NCBI GenBank assembly: GCA_004195635.1
Contig: PSPT01000001.1
Coordinates: 62,001 to 126,000 of the forward strand
Reading direction: 5' to 3'
DNA length: 64,000 nucleotides
Origin: Methanobacteriota archaeon
GTDB lineage: Archaea > Thermoplasmatota > Poseidoniia > Poseidoniales > Poseidoniaceae
Part shown: piece by piece, positions 8,001 to 59,634 of the stretch
Layout: each line of letters opens with the position of its first letter
Numbering within the stretch: the first letter of the stretch is position 1
Position numbers and translations under genes: made by a program
Notes under the pieces: model-generated
What the model saw: the letters and a program-made list of their open reading frames with translations, nothing else
The model's database searches: none
Told to the model about the DNA's origin: nothing

Positions 8001-9331
8001 TTGAAAATGAAAATGCACGTCCAATTATTGAGTTATCCGACCCCCTACCTGATGCCGGAGGTCGCATCTCTTCCTCCGAAACAACTTTGATTGCTGGAGT
8101 TTCCAAGGATGCTGATGGTCAAGTCACAAAGGTCAAGATTGAGATAACCGACCTTCAAACTGGCCTACCGTTACAAAATACACCAGCCCCAATCACAAAT
8201 TTCGATGCAGTTGGTGTATGGCAAGCTTGGTCTGTAACTTGGGACACAAGAATGCTCACTCATGACTTCCAATATAAGTTGACTGCTAAGGCTTATGATG
8301 GCTATGATTGGTCCTATGAGTCTGAAGTGATTTTTACCATTGACAATCCACCTGATGCCAATAACCTCCGGCCTGTTTTCAATACAACTGGTTGGGTTGA
8401 AAACATACAATTATTCTGTGATTCCAACAGTCAATCCTTTGACCGCTGCACAATTGCTCAAATCAATTTGCACGATTGGTTTTATGACCCAGACGGTGAA
8501 TTAACATGGTACAATTTTGTTGTGGTAAATGATGCATCTGATCCAAGTGATGATTACTACGATGATCTTGTCATTATCAATGCAGATGGAATTGCAAAGT
8601 ATAACCCCTTGACCGCATTAGACATTCTCGGCGCAGATATGTCTCTTTGGACATTGGAAGGAGTTCAATTTGAAGTGATAGATAGATCCGGAAGCCGAAA
8701 TTCATCATTCCTAGTTAATTTTGTAGTTCAGGCAATTGATTTCACCGCGACAAGATCTGATGGTGAAATGGATGAGCCTATTACAAAGAATAATCCAGCA
8801 CTATTCGAAGGCCGTGGGCGTCCAGGATCTGAAGTTTATATTCGCCTTGTTGATGGTGGACGTGAAGTAAACCACACGACAATTGGTTCAGATGGCTTTT
8901 GGAGAATGGAAGTTTCAAAAAATGACCTTGCAGGTGCTGGAATAAATGACATTAGTTTCGAATATAACGGTCAAAAGATAGTTCATTCAGTACAATCTGG
9001 TGTTGCAGATGAAGAAGGATTAAGTACAATTATCTGGGTAATTTTGATTATTGTTATTATTGCAATCCTTGGCGGAGTCTTTGTATTCCTCTTTGTAGAA
9101 TATGAAGAAGAAGACAATTTGGATGACATGACTGAAGAAGTCGAGATGGAAGCCGCTGACCCCTACGCATGGGCAAAGAAAAAGTTAGCCGAAGAGGCCC
9201 AGCAAAGTGCATTATCTGTCGCAGCACAAGCTGCACCCGCCCCTCAACCTGTTGCTAATCCAGAACATCCGGGTTGGCTCTGGGATCCAACAACCCAGCA
9301 ATGGGTGCCTGATCCAAACTTCAGGCAATGA
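5042..9331 (+). CDS. Giant surface protein with beta-helix and Ig-like regions, C-terminal TM and Trp-rich tail
   Basis: A 1429-aa exported protein. It has a Sec signal peptide (about residues 1-30, ending near PQAMA). Residues about 60-520 look like a right-handed parallel beta-helix, with irregular repeats such as NNTISGS, NNNVIG and ENNTINA. Middle and C-terminal parts look Ig/cadherin-like (PLIYVDSPANHSSHDGSS; GRGRPGSEVYIRLVDGG). An acidic Ca-site-like stretch, DDGIDNDGDSVMDSADPD, lies near residues 698-715. A transmembrane helix (about 1327-1350) is followed by an acidic cytoplasmic segment and a final motif PGWLWDPTTQQWVPDP. Beta-helices often bind or cleave polysaccharide, but no catalytic set is evident; adhesin or polysaccharide-binding roles are inferred. 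The start is supported by GAGG 7 bases upstream. A G9 run lies at 6717-6725. Confidence 0.85.
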   Translation: MRTGKSLFLVMLMMMSTLVLLVPVAPQAMAVNETNVGVITGTETWSGTHSLSGDVQVAPGAKLIINAGTTVNIPNGTYIEVEGSICAGSSICGASQASTGSPVRFIWADPANASANGRCSFNSDAKCGEGVILRSSIDSAPSSTGMSFVEFTNGYGFPILATGQSNPYLSVLIFDGASFHADNLKFSDINTSNVLAMNLAAPTITDSTFVVGTDEEGWKASAVRAYGSGNGILSTFTIRSSTFTGAAADECGSQSGGLAALLTEDSFIDLESISITNNAYGAFFASSSGSLKTSTFDIQCNAIDTNGHKTTGSIKHWLAISNSSITTEEGAGLTAYDSARVRFTDSTITGASEGSGIGVRGATLVANNNVIGPIGGWNGVWVYGDEFDVTFENNTINATKEPILIGEYHYQDEGWNVPSPSQGVAYIANNTISGSTDTCSSQEMYGGDFDCPTIHVFMSSATIVDNVGTGGAGDAIRATGSILNVQRNNIETGDFAVRASVMDDNYGNKYATLGFFAENVWPGAGQVYNITESSITVQSEYIADPDPSSNETYPVSLSWGGAECPYLYNECLQLSDSKYMPPRGMPLGMEIINNASIFMYANLTNFDLDKAHIQNQNTAWGVQLQEGELVRLRAMVKGVHVSNADIIIRDAIGREIYNMTTDPWGYSPWVSLPSDFHIDTNWNHLASGVNENSCDDGIDNDGDSVMDSADPDCQGGGREMSTYHVTASKFGKGSIDYTFNLIGQLDDVVSLNNIGPNLVVDQHDNQPFKKIITITGSAVDGIGCDCATDYEAWLSQFGNIKEVQVKPPGVSNWDNAYVAVDTSGSNGEITRENHPWSSWTFDWDMGQQAEDDYTFEIRAFDGLDYSPILTRVFQLNTAAPLIYVDSPANHSSHDGSSITFTGRASDPYAGINGNDIQKIHFEIRSVVEGSDDFYVTTTTPGGPAWSYTWDFSAQISGEYTFNIWASDSNFCKSSKDECAWRSLVLDIENENARPIIELSDPLPDAGGRISSSETTLIAGVSKDADGQVTKVKIEITDLQTGLPLQNTPAPITNFDAVGVWQAWSVTWDTRMLTHDFQYKLTAKAYDGYDWSYESEVIFTIDNPPDANNLRPVFNTTGWVENIQLFCDSNSQSFDRCTIAQINLHDWFYDPDGELTWYNFVVVNDASDPSDDYYDDLVIINADGIAKYNPLTALDILGADMSLWTLEGVQFEVIDRSGSRNSSFLVNFVVQAIDFTATRSDGEMDEPITKNNPALFEGRGRPGSEVYIRLVDGGREVNHTTIGSDGFWRMEVSKNDLAGAGINDISFEYNGQKIVHSVQSGVADEEGLSTIIWVILIIVIIAILGGVFVFLFVEYEEEDNLDDMTEEVEMEAADPYAWAKKKLAEEAQQSALSVAAQAAPAPQPVANPEHPGWLWDPTTQQWVPDPNFRQ
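6717..6725 (+). repeat. G9 homopolymer inside the 5042 surface-protein gene
   Basis: Nine consecutive G residues encode Trp-Gly-Gly-Ala in frame, and a seven-G run lies about 340 bases upstream. Runs of this length are prone to slippage during replication and sequencing; the frame is open here. Possible phase-variation tract or error hotspot. Confidence 0.6.
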
Positions 9332-22732: not shown

Positions 22733-25700
22733 ATGGATGTTGAAAATTCTTTTTCACGAAGTATTGCCATTGGTTTGGTACTGTTATTACTCATAACACC
22801 TTTTGCTTCACTTGCACCAGATGTATTACCCTCAGCAAGTGCTGAGGGAGGAACTAGGCACATCTACACCTTTGCTGGCGGTGCGCCTGATGCGATGGCT
22901 CTATACACCGGTTCTACAGCAGATAGGACAACAAAAATCAGTATTCCAAAGGGGGCTGAAATACTTGATGTTGAAATGACTCTATCGGGCGCATCTTCTA
23001 CAGGTTGGTCAAGTGTAAGTAGTGTGACTAGGGATGACTGGATGTCCGGCACATCTGCTGGAATCGACCAACGTTCTGAGGATTTAGCGATGGGTTTAGA
23101 GTCACCAGAATCATTATTCTTTGGGCATGCACTTGATGAGACAACAACATCACCCAATTCTGCTTGGCTTGACAATGGGACGTATTCAATCCGCCAAACT
23201 CCTCTTAGCAACTCATCCGAAACTCGTTTTACAATGCAACAACAATTTTCAAGTTCAACATTTATGTATCAAAGCCAAGGTGCTATTCTAAGCCATCACG
23301 GATGGTTATTTTTATCAAAATGGTCCAGCAACAATCCTACAAAAATGATCAATCGTCTATATGCAAATAATGCAACGAGAGAGTCAACAATTACTTTTGA
23401 CCAAGCCAATTGTCAATTACAACCAGTTTACCCCTCAACATACTATGGGCAATACGGGTTCCGCGATTGGACCTTGGGACCTGATGAGAAATTATATGGC
23501 ATTCTTTCTGGCTACAAAAATCACTATAATAATAATTTACAAACCCCTTATGAAAGGGTTGTAAAAATAGATGTGCGATATGATGATGTCTGGACTTGCG
23601 AGGAAGTTTACGACATTTCATCTCAATTTGGCGATTATTCAGCAATTTCATATGATCGCGTTGAGGACAAAATTTGGGTTGTTCACAATAGCGGAAGGCG
23701 ATTGGTGTCATATGATTTCCAAGATAACAGTTATTTTGAAAGAGATAATGACATGTACACCTTCCAATCATCGAACACTCACAAGTGTGGTAAATCTGGC
23801 GGATTGGTGCGCGGACTTGCAGTTCATGGAAATTTATTTTTCATGCGTTGTAAGGATACTGATTCAAGTTGGCCACCTAAGGATGTTCTAAATGCTTGGG
23901 CGGTTTCTGGAACCTCAACTTCTCTTGTTGCGCAACCGGGGGTTTCTTCAATTCAAGAAATTGGTTATGGCCTCCAATATGATGGGCAACGTCTCTTAAC
24001 ACAGGATTGTGGATATTATTCATGGGGTGGTGGAACCTTGTATTATCGCCAATATGGTTCTGGCATTCAATACCCAACTAATCCAGCACCGGGCACCTCC
24101 ACTTGGATTGGAGAACCAATTGAATTAAGCGAAGACCTTGTTGCAGTAAATATGGAAACTAGTTGGAGTGCTACTTCAGCTGGAGATCGTGTTGATTATT
24201 GGGTGAGCGCAGATAATGGAACACATTGGGAATCTGTTGAAAGCAATAATACCATCCACTTTTCTTTTCCCGGACATATTTTGCGTTGGAAGATGCAACT
24301 AATCGGTTCAAGTTCGGTTTCATGGTGGGTAAATTTGGAGTATGCCTCATCTTATGAGACTACAGGAGTTTGGACCTCAGCACCAATACCTACTGGGACA
24401 GAAGTGGGCAAAGTGCGGCCATCCTGGGCTGCAACTACACCAAGTGGGACTTCAGTGTCTGTTCTCGTTTCAAATGATAACGGTTCGTCATGGACAGTCG
24501 CACAAAATGGGGTTGATACTGATTTCACTAATGAGGGGAATATTCTTCGTTACAACATCCAATTGGATACTTCTGATGTTGCAATGACGCCACTTATCTC
24601 TTCATTTACCCTTGAGTACTTAGAGGGTTTCCCCGACAAAGTTGAAATTGATATTGGCGATGATGGCACGTGGGATTGGAAGGGCCTGACCTTCCTCGGC
24701 GATAGTAGCGTTATTGCAAGTGATGCTTCAATAGTCGGTTCTGAAGTAAGTGACACTCCAACTCTCGTTCAGGCATTTAATGACCATGCCGTTGCTAATG
24801 GCCTTGGTGGTGAAGATATTGTAGTTGCAATCAGGGCTCATTCAAGTGGGCGTATTTTACTTACCAATCTCGACCTTACATATCGCCTTAATACTCGTGT
24901 ACTAGATGCAAAAGTAGAGGGAGGCGTACTAGTTCCAGATGGCGAGCTTAGGACATTGGTTGTTCGCGTTGCACCAGGTGATGGAGTTAGCAGAATTGAC
25001 CGAGTGGTGGCTGATTTCATGCAGAATGATGTGAGTCCAATCTTGGAATGGACACAAGGTGACACCTGTTCACTACTTTCTAGCGGTAATGGCAAACTAG
25101 TCTTCGATAATGGGAACTGTACCTCTACTTCAGATGTTTTTGGGATTGTGTCAATACATTTTCCCATTATGTCAACTTGGGATTGGGATGACCAAGTTAA
25201 TCTTGAATTAAATGTGTCAGTGAATGACAATTTTGGAGTTGCAGTGGCGGGATGGACCACCGAGGACTTGAACCTCCGCGTGGAAAATGATATCCAATTA
25301 AATGGAATGAGGGTTGTTGATGAAACTAATCGTGAGTTATGGAGCAATGACTGGTTGAGGGGTGGCTATAATCTAACTTTTTCGGGTGGAATAAACTTCG
25401 AAAACACTCAAATTAGCCCTGAGTCTGGGCAATTTATGTTACGAATACTCGGGCAGAATCTCACTATGGATGGAGACCCAAATGAAGATGCTCCGGTATT
25501 ATTACATGAAGAGCCGAATCCAAGCCATGGTTCATACAGTATGGCTTTTACTAGCCCTCAAGAATCAGATCCAGGTGGAATGTTGTTTTCAGTTGAAGCA
25601 TTTAATTTGACTAACGGTTCAAGTTATGCCAATCAGCAGTACAACACAATTAGGCTTATCCTTGATGGAAAGAGCCCACTTGTGCTTGATGCAACGCCGG

Positions 25701-28192
25701 CTGATGGTTCTGAAATGCATAAAGGGCCTCCCGCGCCAGGCGGTCAATCAGTATCCATTACGATTCAAGATAGCGTTGACCCGCCGACTCAAATTAGTCT
25801 AAATTACTGGCTTGGATGCACAAGTCGTCATGAATATTGCTCAGATACTAATTTCAATGGTCTTCCTGAGCCGGTTGAATACCGCACAGTATCACTTACC
25901 ACACCTGAAATGCGCCCAGGTGGAATTAATATTTTCCAAGGATTAATTGATGATTCAATGCTCATACACGGTGAAAAAGTTGCCATTTATGTGTCGGGTA
26001 AAGATGATCAAGGAAATGTAGTTGCAATGGGTGGCTCCTCGGTTTGCTCTAATAGCGGAAGTGGATGTGGAAGTGGAATTGGTGAGATTGAACCCGAATG
26101 GGCAAACTCATTGGTTAATTACCATATTCGCGAGGAATTTGAACCAACATTAATTGTTGAAAATTCAACAATCATTGGGCATGATGACCGTGCGCCTCTT
26201 CACCCAGGCATCCCGTATAACCTCATATTGCAAATCGGTGATGGAAATGGCTGGAGTGATATTGCTGGCCTTCATCTTGCATTGGCTGGAGATTTTGATG
26301 ATGAAGAAACAAGTATTTGGGTGACTTTTGGTGATTTGGTAAATGGTGTGCCAAGTATGCATTTGGAAAGTGGCGGTGCTGGCTTAGCAGTTTCTAATTT
26401 GTATAGCATGGTTGCCCCTGACTTTACTAATGAATCATTATTAATGGTTAATTTGAGATTCCAACTGACCTGGAATTTCCCTGAAAAATGGGATTCAGAT
26501 GGGGTCGACTTGTTTATCCCCAAACTCGAGGTTTGGGATCGCCCTTGCTCTGAAATCGAACTGATTCCATGCCACGAAGAAAAGGCCGGTCTTGGAAATG
26601 ACGTTTGGAGTCTTGACAATGATTTGCGCTTTGATACTGCCCAAGGCCACATTACTGCAATTGAATTGCGAAATGGTGCCAATCATTATTATTCCGATGA
26701 TACAGAATCCTTAGTTGGTGCAGGTCAAGTTGTTCGCTTTTCAGGACGAATAATGTTCAGCGAGGATGCAACCCCTGCCCCCGCAGGTGCCCTTGATGTT
26801 CAATTGAGTGATTATGAATACGAGTGGATTACTCAGCCACAAAACAATGGATATTTCACAATGGACTTCCTTGTGCCAAGTGTTCGCAGCGGCCATTTGG
26901 ATTTGTATGCGTCACTTTCCAACTTACCCGGTTTGGCAACCGACCAAACTATTGAACAACCGCGCCTGAGGCTTGCTATCGACAGTTTAAACCCAATTAT
27001 TTCAGATATTGCGATTGGTGGTGTTGCTTCTGGTGAAAGCATTTCGCTGAGCGACGTTTCTAATTTACGAGCAAGTCTTGAAACATGGGATGATAGCGGT
27101 TTTGATGAATCATTACCAACAATGATGCATTATGTGCTACGTGCTGGAGAAAGTGAAGTAAGTCGTGGAAGTGTTATGCTCACAGAGCCAACCATCTTTG
27201 AGGAGCAGATTTTCTGGATTGGTCAGTTTGATCTTACCGATGGTGGTGCTACAAGTGTATTACCAACTTATTCCATTGATGTTTGGGTGACTGGTGCTGA
27301 TGCTGCAGGTAATCCATTTAATGCAGATTCCAATACAGAATCCTCGCCCCTCGGTTCTTGGACATTTATCTGGAATGGTCCTGAAATTGACCTGAGCGAT
27401 GAATTAACAGTCATTAGTTGGGATGACCCAAGTCCACATCTTGGACAAGTTGTAACTCTTCAAATCGATGGGGTTTCATTGAATGGTGTTGGAGGCAATG
27501 TGCAATTATTACTTGAGGAATACGATGGTGAAAATTGGATTAATTCAGGAGAATCCGAAATTGAAGTTCACCCAACAAAACCTTTCCATAGCGAAATAGA
27601 ATATGCTGTTACAAATACCGGAACATTTGATCGCCATACATTCCGTCTAAGATTAATGGATGGAAATTTGGAATTGGATCGTATTAGCGTTTCACCTTTG
27701 TTAATGACTGAGGAAATATCTCGCGATGGTCAAGCCTTAGTTGAGCAAGTATCTGATTCGCGCCTTTCAGTTGTTCTATATTTCATCGCTATGGGCGCAG
27801 CATGTTATGGAATGTACACGATGGTTATACATCGTCGCTTCTTGCGAGATGAAGATGAAGAAAATGTTGATTATACCGATTCAGTTGTAGAGGATATGGT
27901 TGGAAAAGAAACTCCCGACCTGCCGCCAGGTTTTACTCCAATTGATGTGAATAACCCCCCACCCCCGCCTTTTGCCGCCGCATACCCACCACAACCGACT
28001 TTACCTCCACAACCTTCCACTCCTTCAACAGAGTTGACCCCTTTGCCTTTGGCTAGCCTTGATGCCTTGTCGCCCACTCCTCTACCTACTACTGCCGCCG
28101 GCCCGCCAATTCCTGCAGAGGGATTGCCGCAAGGATGGACCGAAACCCAATGGGTACATTATGGGCAAAAATGGTTAGAAGAGAATGCTTAA
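22733..28192 (+). CDS. Giant surface protein with C-terminal TM and GWTxxQW cytoplasmic tail
   Basis: A 1819-aa protein. The start chosen is the ATG at 22733 (AGGG six bases upstream), giving a signal peptide MDVENSFSRSIAIGLVLLLL ending near ASA; a GTG at 22709 would add 8 residues. The long exported part is beta-rich: an early propeller-like region (WLFLSKWSSNN, YDGQRLLTQDCG), then repeated sandwich modules. A TM helix (about 1677-1700) is followed by about 120 cytoplasmic residues: an acidic stretch, a proline-rich linker (NNPPPPPFAAAYPPQP) and a terminal motif EGLPQGWTETQWVHYGQKWL. Nearly the same tail ends the otherwise unrelated protease at 53792. It is probably in one operon with the preceding Ca-loop giant and the small gene after it. 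Function unknown; surface adhesion or binding is inferred. Confidence 0.82.
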   Translation: MDVENSFSRSIAIGLVLLLLITPFASLAPDVLPSASAEGGTRHIYTFAGGAPDAMALYTGSTADRTTKISIPKGAEILDVEMTLSGASSTGWSSVSSVTRDDWMSGTSAGIDQRSEDLAMGLESPESLFFGHALDETTTSPNSAWLDNGTYSIRQTPLSNSSETRFTMQQQFSSSTFMYQSQGAILSHHGWLFLSKWSSNNPTKMINRLYANNATRESTITFDQANCQLQPVYPSTYYGQYGFRDWTLGPDEKLYGILSGYKNHYNNNLQTPYERVVKIDVRYDDVWTCEEVYDISSQFGDYSAISYDRVEDKIWVVHNSGRRLVSYDFQDNSYFERDNDMYTFQSSNTHKCGKSGGLVRGLAVHGNLFFMRCKDTDSSWPPKDVLNAWAVSGTSTSLVAQPGVSSIQEIGYGLQYDGQRLLTQDCGYYSWGGGTLYYRQYGSGIQYPTNPAPGTSTWIGEPIELSEDLVAVNMETSWSATSAGDRVDYWVSADNGTHWESVESNNTIHFSFPGHILRWKMQLIGSSSVSWWVNLEYASSYETTGVWTSAPIPTGTEVGKVRPSWAATTPSGTSVSVLVSNDNGSSWTVAQNGVDTDFTNEGNILRYNIQLDTSDVAMTPLISSFTLEYLEGFPDKVEIDIGDDGTWDWKGLTFLGDSSVIASDASIVGSEVSDTPTLVQAFNDHAVANGLGGEDIVVAIRAHSSGRILLTNLDLTYRLNTRVLDAKVEGGVLVPDGELRTLVVRVAPGDGVSRIDRVVADFMQNDVSPILEWTQGDTCSLLSSGNGKLVFDNGNCTSTSDVFGIVSIHFPIMSTWDWDDQVNLELNVSVNDNFGVAVAGWTTEDLNLRVENDIQLNGMRVVDETNRELWSNDWLRGGYNLTFSGGINFENTQISPESGQFMLRILGQNLTMDGDPNEDAPVLLHEEPNPSHGSYSMAFTSPQESDPGGMLFSVEAFNLTNGSSYANQQYNTIRLILDGKSPLVLDATPADGSEMHKGPPAPGGQSVSITIQDSVDPPTQISLNYWLGCTSRHEYCSDTNFNGLPEPVEYRTVSLTTPEMRPGGINIFQGLIDDSMLIHGEKVAIYVSGKDDQGNVVAMGGSSVCSNSGSGCGSGIGEIEPEWANSLVNYHIREEFEPTLIVENSTIIGHDDRAPLHPGIPYNLILQIGDGNGWSDIAGLHLALAGDFDDEETSIWVTFGDLVNGVPSMHLESGGAGLAVSNLYSMVAPDFTNESLLMVNLRFQLTWNFPEKWDSDGVDLFIPKLEVWDRPCSEIELIPCHEEKAGLGNDVWSLDNDLRFDTAQGHITAIELRNGANHYYSDDTESLVGAGQVVRFSGRIMFSEDATPAPAGALDVQLSDYEYEWITQPQNNGYFTMDFLVPSVRSGHLDLYASLSNLPGLATDQTIEQPRLRLAIDSLNPIISDIAIGGVASGESISLSDVSNLRASLETWDDSGFDESLPTMMHYVLRAGESEVSRGSVMLTEPTIFEEQIFWIGQFDLTDGGATSVLPTYSIDVWVTGADAAGNPFNADSNTESSPLGSWTFIWNGPEIDLSDELTVISWDDPSPHLGQVVTLQIDGVSLNGVGGNVQLLLEEYDGENWINSGESEIEVHPTKPFHSEIEYAVTNTGTFDRHTFRLRLMDGNLELDRISVSPLLMTEEISRDGQALVEQVSDSRLSVVLYFIAMGAACYGMYTMVIHRRFLRDEDEENVDYTDSVVEDMVGKETPDLPPGFTPIDVNNPPPPPFAAAYPPQPTLPPQPSTPSTELTPLPLASLDALSPTPLPTTAAGPPIPAEGLPQGWTETQWVHYGQKWLEENA

Positions 28193-28210
28193 TTGGCAGA
28201 GGTGAACTCT

Positions 28211-28711
28211 TTGAGTGAGCAATACAAGGAGGGCATGCTTTTCTTGCATGAACAACTAGTTGCAATAATTAATCAAATGACAATACCTCTCATTGAAGTT
28301 AGTCTTGTTATCTCTAAATATACAAAAACTCTATCCTCAAGGCTGATTGAAAATGCCGCTAATTACGGCGAATTAATTCCTGCTATTCTGTTGGCACCTC
28401 AACCTCTTGAAGATATTGGAAAGGAACAAGCAGTGCAGGTTCAAACCAGTGATGGTGAAGAAGTTGTGAATGTTTCTATGCCAAATCCTATTGCACAAAT
28501 GGACCCCTCTCTCCTCATTTCACGAACAGATATTGATCGAATGGACATTCTTGATACAGTAATTAGGACCGCAATTAATAGCAAAGAACTTCCATTGATT
28601 AATTCACTGCATGTCTTGCGTGATTGGGAGCATTTAGTTCGGATACAATTAGCCAAGACAAAAACTCCGGGGCAATTATTTAGTCCACTTGAAATTCCTG
28701 ATGGATATTGA
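28211..28711 (+). CDS. Small protein of unknown function, follows the giant surface protein
   Basis: A 166-aa soluble, largely helical protein without recognised domain, signal peptide or TM segment. The start is a TTG at 28211: GAGGTG (28199-28204) followed by exactly six bases and TTG, the same arrangement as at pheT and rnp4, gives MSEQYKEGMLFLHEQL. Earlier candidates (TTG 28193, GTG 28202) lie at or inside that ribosome-binding site. It begins 18 bases after the giant gene's stop, so it is surely co-transcribed and may act with its cytoplasmic tail; that is inference. It converges on the 28758 gene with a 46-base gap holding a weak TGCTT/AAGCA hairpin at 28741-28753. Confidence 0.65.
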   Translation: MSEQYKEGMLFLHEQLVAIINQMTIPLIEVSLVISKYTKTLSSRLIENAANYGELIPAILLAPQPLEDIGKEQAVQVQTSDGEEVVNVSMPNPIAQMDPSLLISRTDIDRMDILDTVIRTAINSKELPLINSLHVLRDWEHLVRIQLAKTKTPGQLFSPLEIPDGY

Positions 28712-34368: not shown

Positions 34369-36762
34369 TTATTCCTCTTCATTCCAGCAATCAATGAGCA
34401 TTTTCTTATTTGTTTTTACGCCACAAGGATTTGAATCAACAACTCCTGATAGTGCAAGTTCAATGCCACTTCCATTGCCAATAATCTCGATTTGAATGAA
34501 AGTTCTACTTCCCTTATTTAATTGGTCAAGGAAAATCTCATCATCTCTATAGAGAAGTTTTGGTTTTACATCTACCACTGTCCATAAACTGCCTTCTGGT
34601 GCCTCAATACGCAAACCAGCATTTTCCCAAACGCCTTCACTAATGTGTATTCCTAGAACGAACGGTAGGCCACCCTTGCTTGCTATTCGCTCATCCAATG
34701 TCCAAACTGCCAAGTCCAATTCGCCAGTATTGTACCGCATTGCTGGTTTACCCCATACTCCAATACCCTCTTCCCATGATAGAATACTGATGAGTTGCAA
34801 ATTTTCTTCTACGCTTTCTCTCGCTTCAGCAATATCTCCCCTTGAAAGAATATCTCGAAGAACTGAAAGGCGGTTCTGCTTGCCAATAAGGTCGAGAGCA
34901 TTCTTTTTTCTCGCTCTTTGAATAATAACAATGTATGTAAACGGCAAACAGAATGAGAATCCAATGACTACTATGAACCATTTAGATGCAGTTAGAGCAA
35001 TCTCGTCAGGAGGGAACCAAGGTTCTTTACCGACATCAGTGCGGAGAATATTCAATTTGAGACTGTAGTCGCCATCACTGCTCACCTCCATATCACCCCA
35101 GGACCAATTTGCTGGTTGCTGAGAGAGATTGAAGTCGGAGACGATCACCAAATGAGTTCCCGGTCCCACTGAAAGGGTGATGTCTTCACTATCCCCCGGT
35201 TGAAGGGTAATGTTGGCACTAGTATTCTTACTTCGGTCAAGCCAATTTATCTCAACCACTTCAATGAATAGTGGTCTAGTTCCACCATTTGTGCAGGTAA
35301 TGCGTGTAAAGAACTTGCTCTCTGGCCAGCCCTCGGTGCTGAACCAATATGTGTCTTGGAAGTCATACACCTCTATGTCTAAACTTTCACTATTTTCTAC
35401 TCCCTCAATCCACTGCTGCCAATTACTCAGTGCATCCAATTCGCTTAATGGCACACCACCCGGGGTGTCGTGAATTACTTCCAAGTCTGTTGATAAGCCC
35501 CAATATGTGGTGCTGTTAGAATTAATACAAAAACGAATCCAAGTGGTTCCTGAAGGGATTGAGGTCAAAGTAATATTGAGTAGAGTTCCGTTGCTAATAC
35601 TCTCGTCCATTGTGCTCAAATCTGACATTAATGTCCAACTACTTCCCGAAAACACATGTATTGCAAAATCAATTGTGGATTCATTTTGACTTGCCAACGG
35701 AGTGACAGTTCTAGATGCTAAGGAGTGCATCAAATGGACCTCCTCGGCAGGGACTAGTAAGGCTAAACAATCTTCATTAGTTTCACCAATCCACCCTTCG
35801 GCTTCATATCCCAATTTAGATTCTTCATTCATCTCAAAGGCAAATCCCGGAGGTGGCCCATCCTTGCCAAGATATTCACCCTTTTCGGATTCCTCATTTG
35901 GGAGGTGGCGGGCGAATTGCAGTGACCAATAGCCGTGGATACTCTCACTTTCTATTTCAAGCCACAATTCCTCTCCTTCTAATACTTCTACATATTTCAC
36001 AAATAGTTGGTCAGAGTTGATTGAAGTGTTTACCATGGTTTCAAAGAGAACTCCAATTTCTCGCAATGAGGTTGAGCGCCCCCATGCGGTAACCTTGAGA
36101 TCTACGGTGGCCTCCTTTAATATAAATTCAAAAATATCGCCCGTGGTTGAATTAAACCGCAGAGCATCACTGTCATTGGTACTCATAATTGAGCCGTTGA
36201 ACCATGTTGGGTTCTTCGTAGTATTTTCCTCACTTCTATGTTCCTCATATTCAACGTTTGAAAAGCGATTTTCTTCGGCAATAGCAACTTCTGAAATATC
36301 ATTAGGCGGGGTGATTTCATCCGCATTATCCACAACACTGAGATGGCCTATAGGCAAAATGGCATTGACTTCAATTGTTTGCCCTGCATCGCCATTGTTC
36401 ACTACAATTAATTCGCCCATTCCTGCTGAGACATTGTGATCAAGAACTATTTTTGTCGCTGAACTAATGGTTGGAGTATTTACTATTCCATCCGAGTCGG
36501 TCAAAGTTACTGAGATACTATTGCACTCGCAAGCAAATTCCAGCCATAGTGAGCCCGCTGAGAAATTCAAGCCAAGATGTAAGTCCTCCCCTGGTGCCGA
36601 AAAAATGCTACTAATTTCAGTTGGTTCACCAACATTCATATGATAATATGTATCACTTGAAGTGGTTCTACCTTCGGCACTAATTGAGGGCTGCATCGGC
36701 AATAAAAGCAAAATCACTAGAGCAATAATGGCCCAATGCCGGCTCTTGTAAAAATCCCCCAT
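34369..36762 (-). CDS. Surface protein with C-terminal TM and about 184-aa cytoplasmic domain
   Basis: A 797-aa type I membrane protein: N-terminal signal peptide (about 8-29, HWAIIALVILLLLPMQPSISAEG), a sequon-rich exported beta domain (about 30-590), a TM helix (about 592-613, WFIVVIGFSFCLPFTYIVII), then about 184 soluble residues. The cytoplasmic part begins with a helical RARKKNALDLIG / LRDILSRGDIAEARESVEENLQL region (a SHOCT-like short helical element is possible) and continues into a beta-rich domain. A large, folded internal domain is unusual for the surface proteins here and suggests signalling or assembly. Family not recognised. Convergent with dnaJ (51-base gap) and divergent from arcS (63-base gap). 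Confidence 0.7.
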   Translation of the reverse strand: MGDFYKSRHWAIIALVILLLLPMQPSISAEGRTTSSDTYYHMNVGEPTEISSIFSAPGEDLHLGLNFSAGSLWLEFACECNSISVTLTDSDGIVNTPTISSATKIVLDHNVSAGMGELIVVNNGDAGQTIEVNAILPIGHLSVVDNADEITPPNDISEVAIAEENRFSNVEYEEHRSEENTTKNPTWFNGSIMSTNDSDALRFNSTTGDIFEFILKEATVDLKVTAWGRSTSLREIGVLFETMVNTSINSDQLFVKYVEVLEGEELWLEIESESIHGYWSLQFARHLPNEESEKGEYLGKDGPPPGFAFEMNEESKLGYEAEGWIGETNEDCLALLVPAEEVHLMHSLASRTVTPLASQNESTIDFAIHVFSGSSWTLMSDLSTMDESISNGTLLNITLTSIPSGTTWIRFCINSNSTTYWGLSTDLEVIHDTPGGVPLSELDALSNWQQWIEGVENSESLDIEVYDFQDTYWFSTEGWPESKFFTRITCTNGGTRPLFIEVVEINWLDRSKNTSANITLQPGDSEDITLSVGPGTHLVIVSDFNLSQQPANWSWGDMEVSSDGDYSLKLNILRTDVGKEPWFPPDEIALTASKWFIVVIGFSFCLPFTYIVIIQRARKKNALDLIGKQNRLSVLRDILSRGDIAEARESVEENLQLISILSWEEGIGVWGKPAMRYNTGELDLAVWTLDERIASKGGLPFVLGIHISEGVWENAGLRIEAPEGSLWTVVDVKPKLLYRDDEIFLDQLNKGSRTFIQIEIIGNGSGIELALSGVVDSNPCGVKTNKKMLIDCWNEEE

Positions 36763-45127: not shown

Positions 45128-45871
45128 CTAGAACAAAGTTCGCTGTGCAGGCACAGGCCCTTTCTCAACCGAATTTGCTCGAATTGGAGTTTCACCCTTA
45201 CCCAATTTCTCCCATGCTTTTTTGACCGTCGCCCATCTCCACCGCAGGCATTCATGTGGTGTTTTTTCTTGCAACAGTAAGGGTAGTGCGGCTTTTGTTT
45301 TTGGGTCGGATGGATATCCAGACCCAATGTCAATACCCAATTTTTCTTTCAATTCCTCAATCGCCAAATCACGGCTTTCCTTTGCCAAAATACTGGCGGC
45401 AGCAGTTGCTAAAAAAAATGCATCAGCACCATGGCGACTATCAATTGCCCATCCTTTCTTTGGCCAATCATGCAGCTTTGCAGCAACATTTTGGCCAAAT
45501 CTAATCGCGTTTGTATCACAAGCATCCAATTGAAGTTGCCCTCCTTCATCAGCCAAGTCAATTTTGTTCAATATGTGTGCGAAAAGATCAACTTCATGGT
45601 AGTTTAGATTGCTTAATTGCATTGCTAAATCAATCGCTGCTGGGGATGAATGATGAATAATAAATTGCCATCCACGCGCTTCAGATCGTGATTTAATCCA
45701 AGAAAAAAGAGCCTTGCGTTTTGCTGAACTAAGTAGCTTTGAGTCCTTTACACCCATCTCCTCCAACATTTTTAAATCAGATTCAGGGATTGCAAATGCT
45801 GCAACAACGAGCGGCCCAAGAGTAGGACCTCTACCTGCTTCATCGACACCAACAAACCACATTATTATCAC
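45128..45871 (-). CDS. rnhB: Ribonuclease HII
   Basis: A 247-aa RNase HII. Catalytic residues are visible: Asp10 and Glu11 in GVDEAGRGP, Asp116 in QLDACDTN and Asp150 in GADAFFLATAAASILAK. It removes ribonucleotides and RNA primers from RNA:DNA hybrids. The GTG at 45871 overlaps the stop of the upstream esterase gene in GTGA, implying translational coupling; the ATG at 45862 gives a slightly shorter form. The operon partner is a surface esterase, an association that seems accidental. Confidence 0.95.
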   Translation of the reverse strand: MIIMWFVGVDEAGRGPTLGPLVVAAFAIPESDLKMLEEMGVKDSKLLSSAKRKALFSWIKSRSEARGWQFIIHHSSPAAIDLAMQLSNLNYHEVDLFAHILNKIDLADEGGQLQLDACDTNAIRFGQNVAAKLHDWPKKGWAIDSRHGADAFFLATAAASILAKESRDLAIEELKEKLGIDIGSGYPSDPKTKAALPLLLQEKTPHECLRWRWATVKKAWEKLGKGETPIRANSVEKGPVPAQRTLF

Positions 45872-48800
45872 AAATCCAAGTCATTCATTATTGAATCGGC
45901 ATAAGATTCAGAATTTTCTTTGGTTGATTCAGAATGAGAATCGGTGTGTTCGGTTGGTAGTTCAACATTTTTTGCCTTTGCTTGGTCGGAAGAGTCAATT
46001 CGGTTAGTACGTGTTGTAATGTGTTCTTTTTCGGGAAGTAGTGAAGTTTCCCCAACAAGGGTCGATGAGATTAATTTGGCTGTGGATAAATCGCTTGAAA
46101 TACGAGATATTTGGCCCTTCATCTGCTTTTCATCATGGTGCTCAAGAACTGAAGAAGCAGCATTGACCAAGTCCGAATCCACCGGCTCAGCAGGTGGTTG
46201 TGCGATACCACTTTTGTTGACAAAAGATGCAGCAAAAGCCTCCTTATTCATTTGTGGGCTAACTGCTAATTCAGGCGCAGCACCGCCATTTGTTTCTGAA
46301 AACTTCTCCATCCAGTCATCCTCCACTTTGTCCTTTGGGATAAGTCCTGCTCCCTGGTCCATTAGTTTCTGCTTTTCATTTATTAGTATTCTCCGCTTAA
46401 TAGAATAATTAATTGCAAAGGCAGAAACCACCACTGCTATCAAGGCATAGCCAAACATATTCCAAGCATTCTTTGTGTGAATCATTACTTTACCCCAGTC
46501 AATCAGCGGTTCATTTGTTGGTGCTGCCTCCTGCCAAGGAATTCCAAGGAATGAAATATTTGCGGAGTGGGTGAATTCCACATCATTGTCAAGGAAACTA
46601 TGGATGGTCATGTTAAGCCACATTGTGCCGTTATATGGCTCTGCATCCGGAATATCTGCCCATGCGCGGAATCTAAAAACTTCTCCTACTGGCACCTCGC
46701 GGATATCAAAAGATCTAATTCCAATGTCATCTCCCTCCCAAGTAGCATTATCTGGTGGAACAATAGCCTGTTCAGTACCAAAATTTACATTCATGGTTAC
46801 GCTAAGCCCATCGGGGCCATTTCCGGTATTAACGAGTGAGTAGGCTACGCTAAGCCGGCCATTGTTTATTTCTGCCGAGGTTTCTTCAATTATCCAATTA
46901 GCCGAAGGTGCAACGCCAATTTCTGTAATAAATTCACTTACAATAACAGTGCTATTGATTAGGCGTAGTGTCCAGCTGATATTGCCTGATGTAAATGCAG
47001 TAGTACCATTATTTACGATTATTTGGGTAGGTGCCAATATCTTTGAATCACCCAAAGGGATGTAAATCACCTGACTACTTACTAATCCAGACACCCAAGA
47101 GGGTGAATTATTTACTTCTAGGACAAAATTATCGGCAAAATTACCTAAGTTAGTAACTTCGAAATTACCGTTACAAGAGTCCAGGGGTAATATTCTGTCA
47201 CAGTTGAAGCCAGTTGTAGAAATAGATGCATTACGTTGCCAAAGGATGGATGCAGAAATGTCAGTTGAGATGTCAGGCTCACTCCCCCACACACTCTTGA
47301 TGAATACTCTTACCTCAAGTTCACTTTCAGTTTTATCAGGCGCCAATAATCCTATTTCAAACTCAACCTCTTGCCCAATATCTACCCACGTCAAATCAAA
47401 TACATCGAATACTGCTGCAGTCCAGCCGTATGCTTCAATACGATTTGAAGACGGATATGAGGGGTCCAGTTGCCCATCCTTAACAATTTGAACTTTAACA
47501 TCCATTCTTGTTGGAGTATTGCCATTATTACGAATTTTTATTTTTATTCTCCCATCTATATTTGGGTCCAAAGAAAGATTCTCGCCAGTATTCGTGAGAG
47601 ATACATTGTGGAAGGAACGAACTTCAATTGAAAAATTCCACCAAAACTCTTGCCCATCATCTGAATTTACCCCTTTTAGGCTCCAATGATAGGGAACTCC
47701 GGCAAGGGGGACGCTATTTACTACGCGTGGGACATTAATAGTCATTGAAATCCATTCCAAGGATTTTTCAGCAACAGTAATTTGTCCATCATTTATTGAA
47801 TTACTTAGGTTCCAAGTTGCATTCCAACCACTGGTTGAGTGAAGGCTTAGGTTGACAATATGTGTGCTCGTGTCATTATTTGTCAGATTCATTGCGAGAA
47901 AGAGAGGAGTTCCATGGTCAGTCAAAAATGAAGAACCCGAGTTTCCTCCAAAAGTGAAGAAGGCGTTGCCAGTGCTATTTTCCGAACCATTATTCACAGA
48001 GTCTCCCGGTCCATCCCATCCTGCTGCCATCCATGGAAATGAATAACCAAAAGTGCCATTGAATACGGTATCATCTGCTGCCTGCTGCAAGGCCAACTTT
48101 GTCGTACTGTCAATATTGGTGGCATCAATCTGGCCTGCAGTTGTGTTGCCGTAAATTGTCGAATAAATCACACATGCAGAAAGGTACGAACCAGTTTGCG
48201 AGGGGTGCATGCCGTCACCCGAATAAAGATTCCAAAAAATTGAAGTTGAATCTAGTGGAACACCTCCTGAATTAAGTATTCCGTCGTAGATATTTTCATA
48301 GGCCAAACCAATAGGTGCAATCCATGTCGTTGACTGCGAATTACTGGTATTATCGCTATAATCTTCATATCCTTGGCGCAAATGTCCTTGCATAGTTTTG
48401 TAATCAGGATATCTTGCTGCATTACTAGAGTCTCCTTCTCTGTACCCCCAAGTCATAAAAAGTACACTTTCTCCACCTAAATCATTAACTCTTGTTGTTA
48501 AGTCAAACAATCCATTGATACTATTTTGCCAATCCGTGTTACCTCTAGGGAATCCCGGAACTTGGCTTTGGTCCTGAAAAACAACCCAGTCAAGATCATT
48601 ATTGCTTAGGGTCGTATTCCATTGGTCACCGGGTGTATTCATTCTACTTGCATGTTGATCAAGCCTCATTCCCCCTCCACTAAGTGATGAAACATTTGCT
48701 GAGTCAGATGGTGTAATTATTTGGTGTAGGATTGTTTCAAGGTCATTTGCTTGAGTATAGGAATTCCCTACGAGTAATACTTCGGCAGCTTCATCTGGAA

Positions 48801-53791: not shown

Positions 53792-56700
53792 ATGAAATGC
53801 TTTTGCCGTACGGGCCGACCTATGGTCGGCAAGGTAAAGAACCAAATCATAAGTATCTTTTTGCTTGGATTACTTTGCTTGATGAGTGCATCTCCAGTAC
53901 TCGCACTCGGAAATAATTCGATTGAAAACCCAGCCATTTCTTCTCCAACTTCAATGGTGGACTCTATTGACTCAATTACCTCCCAAGCATTTCCTCTCGC
54001 CGATTGGCAACCACTTCATGAACCAACATTAATTTCTACACCTCTTGAAGATGGAAGTGGTCTGCTCCACTCGCGATTTGGTAGTTTTGACCCAGTGTGG
54101 AATGAATTCCCTTCATCAAATACTTCTCTTGATTTTTCTCGTGCCAATATTGATGGCCTTTGGATAGTTCAGTTGATTCGTCCTGATGCAAGGGTTTTGG
54201 AAAAATTGTGTGCTGATTTTGGTTGTGAAATTATTGATTATGTACCAGATAGTGCGTGGTTAGTTAGAGGTAGTTCTGCAGCATTAGAACAAATTGAAGA
54301 ATCATCAGCCGTAAGGTGGATTGGTGGAGAACCGGCATCATGGCGCCTAGGGGAATCACTAATCTCAAATTGGTTCAACCTCCCTTTGAGTTTGGACCTT
54401 GTACTTCAACCCGCATCTGATTTGGATGAAGATGACATCGCAATATTACTGAAAGATCTCCTTCGATTAAATGTGGGTGAAGTTAGTTGTGATGTGATAC
54501 TTTGCCGATTGACTGCACTAAGAGCATCAAATATGCAAGGTCAACAAGCACAACTTTCAACTATTGCCATGGACGGGAGAATTATTTTCTCTGAACCGCT
54601 CCTTGAATTACGTACTTTCAATGCACAGGCAGCCGTCGATATTGGCCTTACATCAGTAATTGCAAACCACAATTCTGGATTGAATGGTTCGGGTGAAACT
54701 ATTGCAATTCTTGATACCGGCCTCGACCACGATCATATTGACTTTGGAAATAGTGTTCTCTCTGTAAGGACCTCATTTTCCTATGATCAATCGGGTGACG
54801 ATACCAATTCCGGACACGGAACTCATGTTGCTGGGACTCTTATTGGAGATGGCACTGGTGATTCTAGCGCTGCTGGACTTATTCCAGGTGCATTGCTGCA
54901 TATGTATGCTCTTGAGTATGATATTTCGGGTTCAATTGCAAAAACCGGTTCAACCTACGACATTTTGCGTGATTCAAGAATACAAGGTGCTCGTATTGGT
55001 GTAAATGCTTGGGGTACTTCAAGTGACCTTGGGCAATATAATTTGGAAAGCCGTTCTTTGGATGTTTTTGCAAATGATTATCCCGATTATATTCCTGTAT
55101 TCGCAGTTGGGGACGACCCTATGCAAGGTTCCAGTGCTGTTTCACCACCTTCAACTGCAAAAAATGTATTTTCCTTTGGTGCCAGTGATGGTTCTGCAGT
55201 TGCAAACTTTAGTGCCTTTGGCCCTGTTCTTGATGGACGAATCAAGCCAGATTTAGTCGCCCCAGGTGTAAATATTTGTAGTACGCGTGCTGAAGAAGCT
55301 CGATATCCAGCAGGTAATGCTTGTGCGACTGGCATTCATTCGAATGGTGACCCGCTTTACATGAGTATCAGTGGAACAAGTCCGGCTGCAGCAGTAGGTG
55401 CAGCAGGTGCGGCACTAATGCGACAATTCCTACGTGAGGAGGCAGGTATTGTGGGGCCATCGGCTGATTTGGTAAAGGCTGCATTAATCAATGGGGCACA
55501 AGACCTCGGTGCAGCAGATATTCCTAACCCGTCAGAAGGTTGGGGGCAAATTGATTTGGACCGTTCAATGTATCCCGCCGATGGTGCTCTTTCCACTTGG
55601 TATGATAATACTAAGGAATTGGACCCAGGGTATGGATTCCTCTACAATTACGATTTAGATATGTCGCAAGGCATTGACATTACTTTAGTTTGGACCGATG
55701 CAGCAGGTTCATCTACTGCACCTCAATCACAATCTCGCATTGTCAACAATCTCAACTTACAATTAATATCGCCAGATGGTACCGTGACATATCGCGGTAA
55801 TAATTTTGTTTTAGGTGCATCTGTTTCAGGTGGTTCGGCGGACACAGTAAACAATGTTGAAAGAATCCACATACCTTCTGGTGTAGGGACCATAAATGGG
55901 CAATGGACCGTAAAAATCAGTCATTTAGGTGGCTCAACTCAGAAATTTGCAATAGTTGTCACCGGTAATGGAACTTCAACTCCGGGTACGGATTTGGCAG
56001 TAATAGCAGAAAGTATTTGGCTTTCTCAATCAGTTCCGTTGGTAAATGATGAAATTACATTGCGCCTCTCTTGGGTCAACCAAGCACCGGTTAGTGCATC
56101 CAGTTACCGTGTTTTATTGGAAGATGTGACAACTTCTGATGTACTACTCAGCCAAACAAAGACCGAAGGTCTTGATGGTGGGAAAATTGAATCCGTTTCT
56201 ATTTATCATACCTTTTCCCAAACCGGTGAGCATCATTTGAGGTTAACACTTGATGCTGATGATGATATCAGTGAAATAAATGATGCTAATTCAGGTGTCA
56301 ATAACAATATTGGCGACCTAATTGTAAATGTTAGCGCCATGGGTTTGAGAATTATTCCGCTGATGAGTGATGGCTCTGAGCCTTCAACTCCGAGTGAAAA
56401 TTCCCAAGCATCTCAAATTGATTTCAATGCTTCTGCGATTGAATCGATTGCCATTCCGTTTAAATTACGCCATGAGGGTACTTCGCAAGAAAATGTATCA
56501 CTATCTGTATCATCTATTCAGGAAATAGACCCCACTAATCCATTTAGGTTACTTTCACCCGAAGATTCTTGGTCACGTTCACTAAATGTTTCCTCCACAA
56601 TTTCCATGCCTGCTGCTGGAGAGGTGGGTGATAATGAATTGATTACATTAACAGTTACTGATGATGATTCTGATTTAAGTGGCTCTCAGCCAAGATTTGC

Positions 56701-58876
56701 TCGCGAGGGTAGATTCGTAGTTGATATTACTGCGAGGTATCAAATTCAGCCATCGGTCAGCCACTCATTGCGATATACAATTGATGTCGGCCGAGTTGAC
56801 AATGTATTGGTAGTTTCAGCAGGAATTGGGAATTTGGTTGCTGAGCCAGGTCAAGTTGCATTTTATTCCATTTCTGTAATGAATATTGGCAATGCTGTTG
56901 CACAATACAACATTGCATGCCAAAGCACTAATGGATGGCCAGTTGAAGTTGGACCTTCCAACTCTGCGAGTATTGAGTTTGAGCCCTTGGATATTTTGGA
57001 GTATCTGCCCATGCAAGTGCGACTTCTAGTGCCCCCTGTGGTAAGTGGTTTGCCAGCGTCCGGAACAACTGATGAAGTGTCCTGTACTGTGACCAGTGCC
57101 ACAGATGTATTTTTCTCTCATGTAGAAACTGCCATAATTACTGTTGCGGAATTAAAATCATTTAATACCCAATTATTTGATTTAGGTGGCAATCCAATTG
57201 GGCCACAAGCTACGGCTAATCCCTTGATGGTCAATAGTGGGGATTACTCAAATCTAAGTTTAGAAATTTCAAATGATGGTAACATTGCGATACCACTCAA
57301 TGTAAAGCTACAAGCAGCAGACCCCACTTGGCCAATGGAAGTCAGTTATGACGGCACTTCGCATGCACAAACCATTGACATTACTATTGAAGCCGGAGAA
57401 ACTGCGAGTGTAAAGTTGGCTGCAGGAATACCTCTAACTGCACCAGATGGCGCAGAGAATAATTTCACTCTAACCACCAAACTCAATTTACAGGGAACTA
57501 ATGTGTTCATAACAAATGGAAGTATGTTCAGAGTTGGAAAATTGTTGGCTCTTGAATTGAATCAAATCAATGATGAGAATGATGCTGTGCAAGTGATATT
57601 AGGTGGATGGTCTAATCATATGTTAAATATTGAAAATAGGGGGAATGCCCCCCTTTCTCTTGAATGGGCCATTGCCGAAGGGCCAGATGGATGGGATGTA
57701 GGGCTTGATTCTCCTCCATTATCTCTCGAGCAATTGGGATCTTCTTCAGTGAATATAGGTGTTTTTGCACCCAATGGTACAGAAGCAGGTATGTTTCCAG
57801 AGACACTAAAAATCAGGGTTAATGGAACATATGGTTCGGAATATGTTGAAGCGACAATTGATCTACAATTATTCATCAAACAAACCGCTGCATTTACCTT
57901 AACTACTTCTGACACTTCAGGACTTCAAGATATGGTGCGTGAAGAATCGAGTACAATTGAAATATCGGTACATAATGTTGGTAATACAATTGGCTCAGGT
58001 ACTGTTTTTGCTCAGATTGTTGATGGTTCTGGTAAAGTTGATTCTAGTTGGGTGGTAACTGCTTCAAATGATTTCTCTGATTTAGCAAGTGGCGATGTAA
58101 CTTCAATGGATTTTGTCATCAAGGCCAAGGATGATTCCGGCACAGGAATTCGTTACTTGCACCTGAGCATTGTTGCTGATGATGCCCCAGTTTCGGAAGA
58201 ATGGGTTTCTGAAACGCTTGAAATTGGCATCACTGCTGAAACTGGAAAACAAAGCGGTGGGCTTTTTGGAGGTTTGCCTACTTGGGTTGTCGGCATTATT
58301 GTTGGAGTAGTAACAATTTGTGGAATTATAGCAGTCCTCAAATTGCGCTCAAGTGTTGAAATACTGAATGTGGGTGAAACGCTTGTTGCCCCCGGTGTAC
58401 ACACTAGCCAAGATAATATTTCTCAACGCCGTTCAGAGGCCTTAATGGAAGATGTGCATGATGAGAAGGACTTAGTTTCAGGCGAGGTAAGTTATGAAGA
58501 AATTCAAGCCGCCTTGGTGAAAAGCATGAGCGATTCAATCGCCGCGCCAAATCCTGCTGGACTTCCACCACCTGCCGGCCTCCCTCCGCTACCTGGTGCC
58601 TTGCCCAAAGGTTTGCCGCCCCTCCCTAGTGCCTTGCCCTCAGGTTTACCGCCCCTCCCTTCACCGCTACCTGCGCCGTCACCTCACCTTGCATCACCTC
58701 AAGCACCTGCGCCAACTGCGGCCCCTTCCTCGGCTTCATTCACCCAACCAAATGCCGTACCCTCTGTAGGTTTGCCCATTGCCGGCCCACCTTTGCCCCC
58801 CGAAGGTTTACCTGTTGGTTGGACACAAGAACAATGGGTTCATTACGGTGCTGAATGGCTAAAAAGCAGAGACTAA
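53792..58876 (+). CDS. Giant cell-surface subtilisin-like protease (S8)
   Basis: A 1694-aa exported protease. Signal peptide (about 15-38). Residues about 40-285 are an N-terminal prodomain-like region, followed by the S8 domain with Asp308 ([11 protein letters not shown]), His342 (SGHGTHVAG) and Ser530 (SGTSPAAA). The oxyanion position reads AVGDD, with Asp441 where Asn is usual. Residues about 600-1490 are beta modules including CARDB-like repeats. A TM helix (about 1497-1520) precedes an acidic and proline-rich cytoplasmic tail ending in [19 protein letters not shown], nearly the same as the giant protein at 22733. Start: ATG 53792 with GGTGA, or ATG 53822 in the loop of a hairpin. It probably degrades extracellular protein for nutrition. 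Confidence 0.88.
53814..53830 (+). promoter_or_regulatory. Hairpin over the second possible start codon of the giant protease
   Basis: A perfect 7-bp inverted repeat GCCGACC / GGTCGGC with a 3-base loop; the in-frame ATG at 53822 spans the loop and stem. If translation starts at 53792 the hairpin is simply coding; if at 53822 it would sequester the start. Function unproven. Confidence 0.35.
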
Positions 58877-58995
58877 TCTCCAGCACTCTATTTCCACTAC
58901 AGGTAAATAATTCACTGGAATGTGGAAATCTATTGGCTATAGTTTCAAGAAATACGCCCGTTAGGTTCAATGCCTTCATACTGCACGCGAGTAAT

Positions 58996-59634
58996 ATGAG
59001 CAGTATTGTTCTATTCGGCCCGCCTGGTGCGGGAAAGGGAACGCAAGCAACAGCGATTACCAATTTAACTGGCTTACCTCAAGTAAGTACAGGCGATATG
59101 CTGCGTGCCGCACTAGCAGCAGGAACTGATTTGGGCCTTAAGGCAAAGGCTTTCATGGATGCTGGGCAACTAGTGCCGGATGAAGTGATTATTGGCTTAG
59201 TAAAAGAAAGGGTCAAGGAAGATGATGCAGTAAATGGAGTTCTCCTTGATGGCTTCCCAAGAACTATTGCTCAAGCAGAGGCTCTAGCAAATTTTGAGGA
59301 AATAGATATGGTTATTTCAATTGAAGTTCCTGATGAAAAAATTATTTCTCGAATATGCGGACGTTACTCCTGCTCGGGTTGTGGTGCAGTTTACCATGAG
59401 ATTTTCAATCCAACCAAAGTTTCTGAGACCTGTGATGGTTGTGGCTCCACTGAAATGAAAATACGAGCCGATGATAATGAAAACACCGTTCGTTCACGCT
59501 TAGATGCTTACCACTCTCAAACATCCCCCTTGGCAATATGGTATGGAGAAAAGGGTTTATTATTCCCTGTCAATGGCAACCAAGATATTTCTCTTGTCGG
59601 GACGGAAATAATGGAATTAATCAATTCTCGTTGA
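58996..59634 (+). CDS. adk: Adenylate kinase, long zinc-LID (bacterial-type) form
   Basis: A 212-aa adenylate kinase. P-loop [11 protein letters not shown] (residues 6-16), STGDMLRAA (AMP-binding), LLDGFPRT and a zinc-binding LID with Cys4 (CSGCGAVYH...CDGCGS), then [17 protein letters not shown]. It balances ATP, ADP and AMP; cytoplasmic. This is the bacterial/long form, not the short archaeal AdkA, so gene transfer from bacteria is likely. The ATG at 58996 starts at the P-loop strand; the frame opens earlier at 58855, in the preceding gene, without support. Its stop codon TGA is part of the GAGGTG site of rnp4, so adk, rnp4 and the CRM gene form one operon. Confidence 0.96.

Follow-up and report, generated by a model that had tools for sequence, protein, structure and literature searches.

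A tryptophan-rich tail shared by unrelated surface proteins of Poseidoniales, a candidate intracellular docking tag

Why should two unrelated surface proteins end in the same few residues, on which side of the membrane does this ending lie, and what could read it? These questions arise from a 64,000-nucleotide stretch of DNA (hereafter the window) from a member of the Poseidoniales. Among planktonic archaea these (Marine Group II) are the most numerous in ocean surface waters, and they have no cultured representatives (PMC6461757). The initial annotation of the window had noted one tryptophan-rich motif at the C-termini of two very large surface proteins, the exported parts of which it described as unrelated.

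The shared ending of two window proteins

The features of the window considered here are the following:

5042-9331, + strand: P0003, a 1429-aa beta-helix surface protein
9266..9316, + strand: tail of P0003, HPGWLWDPTTQQWVPDP (from alignment; predicted three short strands)
22733..28192, + strand: P0001, a 1819-aa surface protein (translation, hydropathy) with no Pfam family above the cut-off; from N to C, a hydrophobic segment, an unannotated ectodomain, a single membrane helix, a cytoplasmic linker and the tail
27773..27829, + strand: C-terminal membrane helix of P0001 (hydropathy), followed by the basic residues HRR
27830..28102, + strand: proline-rich cytoplasmic linker of P0001 (sequence)
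28103..28177, + strand: tail motif of P0001, PPIPAEGLPQGWTETQWVHYGQKWL
28193..28711, + strand: 172-aa cytoplasmic protein directly after P0001, a conserved neighbour without Pfam family
53792..58876, + strand: P0002, a 1694-aa subtilase (Peptidase_S8 and CARDB) with an N-terminal hydrophobic segment, a C-terminal membrane helix, a linker and the tail
58283..58339, + strand: C-terminal membrane helix of P0002 (hydropathy)
58340..58786, + strand: proline-rich cytoplasmic linker of P0002 (sequence)
58787..58861, + strand: tail motif of P0002, 25 residues (predicted extended segment and helix)
58855..59634, + strand: adenylate kinase, directly downstream of the P0002 subtilase

The tails of P0001 and P0002 are in frame, with stop codons at 28190-28192 and 58874-58876. 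Aligned over their last 31 residues the two proteins score 132; no other pair among the 35 C-termini of the window scores above 32, and 5000 shuffles reach at most 59. A degenerate DNA pattern of the motif has two matches in the window and none in 100 shuffles. Outside the tail BLAST finds no similarity between P0001 and P0002. The observation of the initial annotation is thus confirmed: the two proteins share the motif and are dissimilar elsewhere. The DNA of the two tails is 61% identical and uses different codons at 13 of the 20 identical residues, so that neither is a recent DNA copy of the other and selection acts at the protein level.

A third protein, the product of the gene at 5042 (P0003), had been proposed to carry a relative of this motif. 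It does end in a tryptophan-rich motif, PGWLWDPTTQQWVPDP, but the proposed kinship is not borne out: the pairwise score with the first tail lies within the shuffled range, the profile-profile probability is 0.9%, and the predicted fold is beta rather than helical (three short strands, pLDDT ~93). This second tail has the consensus HPGWxWDxxxxxWVPDP, is present in 37 of 39 Poseidoniales genomes and is also found on another family of about 400 residues. It is a separate conserved cytoplasmic module.

Occurrence, topology and carriers of the tail

A profile search of the window genome (1.75 Mb, 80% complete) returned nine tails with E values from 2e-18 to 3e-16, and nothing fainter up to E = 10. 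The tail is present in 39 of 39 Poseidoniales genomes, then in 82 of 82 in a phylum-wide scan, and it recurs on other membrane proteins, as the first proposal required. Each genome has between 1 and 12 copies, 5-12 in one family of the order and 1-7 in the other, and two genomes (G023 and G037) have a single tail protein each. None of six genomes of the sister family of the same class has the tail, and the remainder of the phylum yielded no credible one: weak matches in G082 and G094 were rejected as 42-aa frames with a stop. When 84,980 species genomes were scanned with a DNA pattern of the motif, at least 114 stretches matched, and those listed all belong to Poseidoniales or marine Euryarchaeota; rare occurrences outside the order among these genomes are possible. 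No viral copy was found in IMG/VR.

The tail is summarised as PP[LIV]P-xx-GLP-x-GW[TS]-x-EQW-xx-YG-xx-[WY]L, about 25 residues, and the consensus of 204 distinct tails is P-P-[LIV]-P-x-x-G-L-P-x-G-W-[TS]-M-[ED]-Q-W-x-[HYW]-Y-G-x-x-[WY]-L. Positions P-7, G-4 and P-2 are 100% conserved in the 204 tails and were not demanded by the search expression, whereas G0, W1, Q5, W6, Y9 and G10 were; Gln5 and Gly10 are nevertheless also invariant in the nine unselected tails of the window genome. Within clusters of carriers the mean identity of the tail (0.67-0.79) exceeds that of the adjacent ectodomain (0.34-0.58) and of the linker (0.27-0.54). In the linker that joins the helix to the motif (median length 71 residues), Pro, Ala, Glu and Ser are abundant. 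GW lies at most 24 residues from the stop in 170 of the 211 frames with an intact end, and about one fifth of the tails have further residues after them. AlphaFold2, applied to 52 tails, predicts an extended proline-rich part and then, starting at the Thr, a single helix; pLDDT is 87-89 over the core, and pTM is a modest 0.48. The helical part is acidic, with a mean net charge of -1.8. The predicted shape of the module is thus an extended proline-rich segment followed by a short acidic helix with Trp and Tyr on one face.

For the topology, helices were called by hydropathy, and sidedness was read from hydropathy together with charge. All nine carriers of the window genome have an N-terminal hydrophobic segment and a C-terminal membrane helix followed by the tail, and the usual layout among 214 distinct frames with the motif is a single C-terminal membrane helix, then basic residues, a proline-rich linker and the tail. 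Of 122 motifs in loci found by the motif alone, 113 lie after a membrane helix with no later helix; eight of the others are cut by the locus edge, and one precedes the helix. Lys and Arg together average 3.1 over the 15 positions that follow the helix, against 0.5 ahead of it. These values agree with a tail inside the cell, as first annotated. The proposal would have been refuted had the motif been equally frequent on cytoplasmic proteins; no complete protein of that kind was found with it, and none of the 122 motifs lies in a complete soluble frame. Two seemingly soluble carriers were rejected: an 85-aa frame (L158) has an in-frame TAA within a normal linker, and a 258-aa frame without membrane helix (L283) is a protein of the SAP-domain family cut by the end of its locus.

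In this SAP-domain family (SAP E = 1e-8; L164, L160, L209, L283) the order is SAP domain, motif, membrane helix and ectodomain. The charges around the helix are not decisive for its orientation, but the N-terminus is expected to be cytoplasmic because a SAP domain is present and a signal sequence is missing, so that the motif is probably on the cytoplasmic side here too. Since it is internal in these proteins and yet expected inside, the motif appears tied to the inner side of the membrane and not to the C-terminus as such.

Cut at the membrane helix, the carrier ectodomains fall into 10 clusters by BLAST alone, between which remote homology of immunoglobulin-like parts is possible. They include the subtilase with CARDB, PKD/CARDB proteins, a beta-propeller-like protein and unannotated ones. 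In one genome (G031) a member of a tandem pair is without the tail, hence a surface protein can manage without it. Subtilase relatives from the sister family and from elsewhere in the phylum have no such tail where the C-terminus is readable, those of the sister family ending a few residues past the membrane helix. The tail thus appears to be an addition of the order Poseidoniales.

Other endings were seen on proteins of these genomes. A tandem triple of related ectodomains (~25% identity) on contig C5 of the window genome (L103:3-10632) has unlike cytoplasmic ends: one is a GWT-QW-YG tail, and the other two are Trp-rich but differ from each other, as though tail modules had been exchanged. 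Several surface proteins end in an acidic [DN][DE]LD[LF], sometimes after a Trp tail (window 45868-48948; the tandem pair of L105 and its orthologs). Fourteen of 255 Poseidoniales proteins end in EE, most of them in EEE (e.g. window 34369-36762 and L107:12761-15499), while composition predicts about 0.4% for EE. Zinc ribbons or other Trp-rich tails end further surface proteins of the window genome.

Comparison with known terminal modules

Neither Pfam nor NCBIfam has a model that covers the tail, and Foldseek and PDB sequence searches gave nothing significant for either tail type, with no PDB structural match for the predicted module. The closest likeness in kind is to the GlyGly-CTERM, PEP-CTERM and PGF-CTERM signals, where one short C-terminal block is borne by many otherwise unrelated exported proteins, as many as a dozen or so per genome, and where related ectodomains can bear different tails. 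The Poseidoniales tail shares this trait, with nine copies in its own genome and 10 ectodomain clusters. The order of parts differs nevertheless: motif, membrane helix and basic residues at the end in the sorting signals (PMC3237569), membrane helix, basic residues, long linker and a motif inside the cell in the tail, for which no processing enzyme is implied. Three tails gave no match to any NCBIfam model, sorting-signal models included, at E up to 10. The tail therefore resembles shared C-terminal sorting signals in kind, departs from the part order that defines them, and sits inside the cell.

As a working principle the dockerin-cohesin pair is also comparable, a small module on many enzymes being read by a common scaffold. 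Dockerins are however extracellular, calcium-binding and larger; in place of their duplicated calcium-binding loop-helix the tail has a single short motif, without Pfam match. SHOCT (short C-terminal domain, PF09851) is a short C-terminal helical module whose Thr-capped helix pattern is loosely like the tail. Membership was rejected, as the PF09851 model has no match in the tails; in the window genome it gives one sub-threshold match elsewhere, whereas of 14 control genomes 13 have matches. WW domains are three-stranded sheets with two Trp. Their LPxGW start is similar to the GLPEGW of the first tail, and three short strands are predicted for the second tail; the first is however helical after GW. 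Pfam finds no WW match for either tail, and Foldseek lists WW for the second at E above 4. The pancreatic-polypeptide fold and Trp-cage miniproteins, in which a proline-rich segment is followed by an aromatic helix, offer an analogy; no structural match was found for the predicted tail. We found no description of the motif, or of Poseidoniales surface tails, in the open-licence literature. The tail looks like an apparently undescribed address label, read by one shared component of the cell.

Possible readers of the tail

The recurrence of the tail, its position, its topology from hydropathy and charge, its conservation and its taxonomic limit are directly supported by the data above. That a single module is borne by many clients, on the same side of the membrane and at the end of a long flexible tether, with specific residues strictly conserved, fits a docking tag for one common cytoplasmic receptor, a reading to which we give a probability of roughly 0.6. 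A signal sequence would export each surface protein and the single membrane helix would stop it; a flexible linker of about 20-150 residues would then keep the mini-module, itself some 25 residues long, on the inner side, where one common receptor could recognise it. In this way one address would serve at least 10 different surface machines, e.g. by clustering, placing or retaining them. We infer both the existence of a single receptor and its role. The shared docking or sorting partner proposed in the initial annotation gains from these results in part: recurrence, cytoplasmic side and protein-level selection are as predicted, while the 5042 tail no longer counts as a relative. The two single-tail genomes speak against the docking tag, being odd for a system that gathers many clients; the tail-less member of the G031 pair, the modest pTM and the missing PDB match also count against it.

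No common partner was found among neighbour genes and candidate proteins. The search for a co-conserved gene, suggested at the outset, did give fixed neighbours (LonB, the thermosome and adenylate kinase). The coiled-coil protein encoded beside one tail family (u912) was excluded as a general receptor, since several genera of the second family have tails and no strong homolog of it. Proteins of this type (L107:12761-15499 and orthologs) are cytoplasmic, with about 530 residues of highly charged coiled coil, a proline-rich end and no Pfam family; they occur in all Poseidoniaceae-type genomes tested and in part of the other family. A coupling of the tail to SecY was also rejected. It was suggested by one MAG, in which a 135-aa single-helix tail protein lies directly downstream of secY (L185:6884-7300), and does not repeat after secY in the other genomes examined.

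Among these neighbours LonB suggests another reader. This membrane-anchored AAA+ protease would take the tail as a quality-control degron, a handle with which it draws in and destroys surface proteins that have failed or are in excess. Lon proteases prefer exposed aromatic sequences, and LonB lies directly downstream of one tail family, on the same strand, at all 26 testable loci, which come from both families of the order (the thermosome lies likewise beside another tail family, itself in both families, at 32 of 32 loci). The sole tail gene of G023 and of G037 is the one next to LonB, and such 'reduced to one' genomes are those in which Haft and Varghese proposed to search for unseen partners, as seen with rhombosortase (PMC3237569). 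Archaeal LonB has a membrane anchor, and its active site lies in the cytosol (PMC9263693). In physical terms this placement makes LonB a sensible reader of the tail. However, adenylate kinase is equally fixed directly downstream of the subtilase family, at all 16 testable loci, and that tail family too occurs in both families of the order, so that conserved order alone is weak evidence, and the neighbour argument was formed post hoc, on data already seen. LonB is moreover common across archaea whereas the tail is limited to one order, and a permanently exposed degron would be costly on elaborate surface proteins. We therefore consider LonB an unlikely reader.

Two further readings, each less probable still, need no protein receptor. 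Trp and Tyr are typical interface residues, and their common face could act as a foot on the inner leaflet that steadies a very large ectodomain, the more so as the carriers have a single C-terminal membrane helix. The acidity of the helical part, the long linker that separates the tail from the membrane, and the strictly kept Gln and several Pro and Gly positions, needless for interface binding, all disfavour such a foot, which we hold to be improbable. Least probable of all is that the tail is a cap complete in itself, shielding or finishing the C-terminus without a partner, spread by duplication and kept for stability: the predicted ordered segment and helix and the usual closeness of GW to the stop would suit it, but further residues follow about one fifth of the tails and a whole protein follows the SAP-family motif, so that the tail need not be terminal, and Gln5 and Gly10, off the aromatic face, are conserved too (both demanded by the search, both invariant in the nine unselected tails).

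With the docking tag as the preferred reading, a wider scheme may be sketched, although we propose it tentatively and would not expect it to hold as a whole: an intracellular addressing system of Poseidoniales, with a small set of tail codes (GWT-QW-YG, HPGWxWD, zinc ribbons) whose dedicated receptors would set the site or the lifetime of giant surface machines. As far as found here, no earlier cytoplasmic tag common to archaeal surface proteins is on record, and the tail would be the first. Its 25 residues could serve as bait for the protein that would organise large surface proteases and adhesins. With the tag as a marker the surface machines of any Poseidoniales genome can be listed, and it puts many unannotated giant proteins into a common class.
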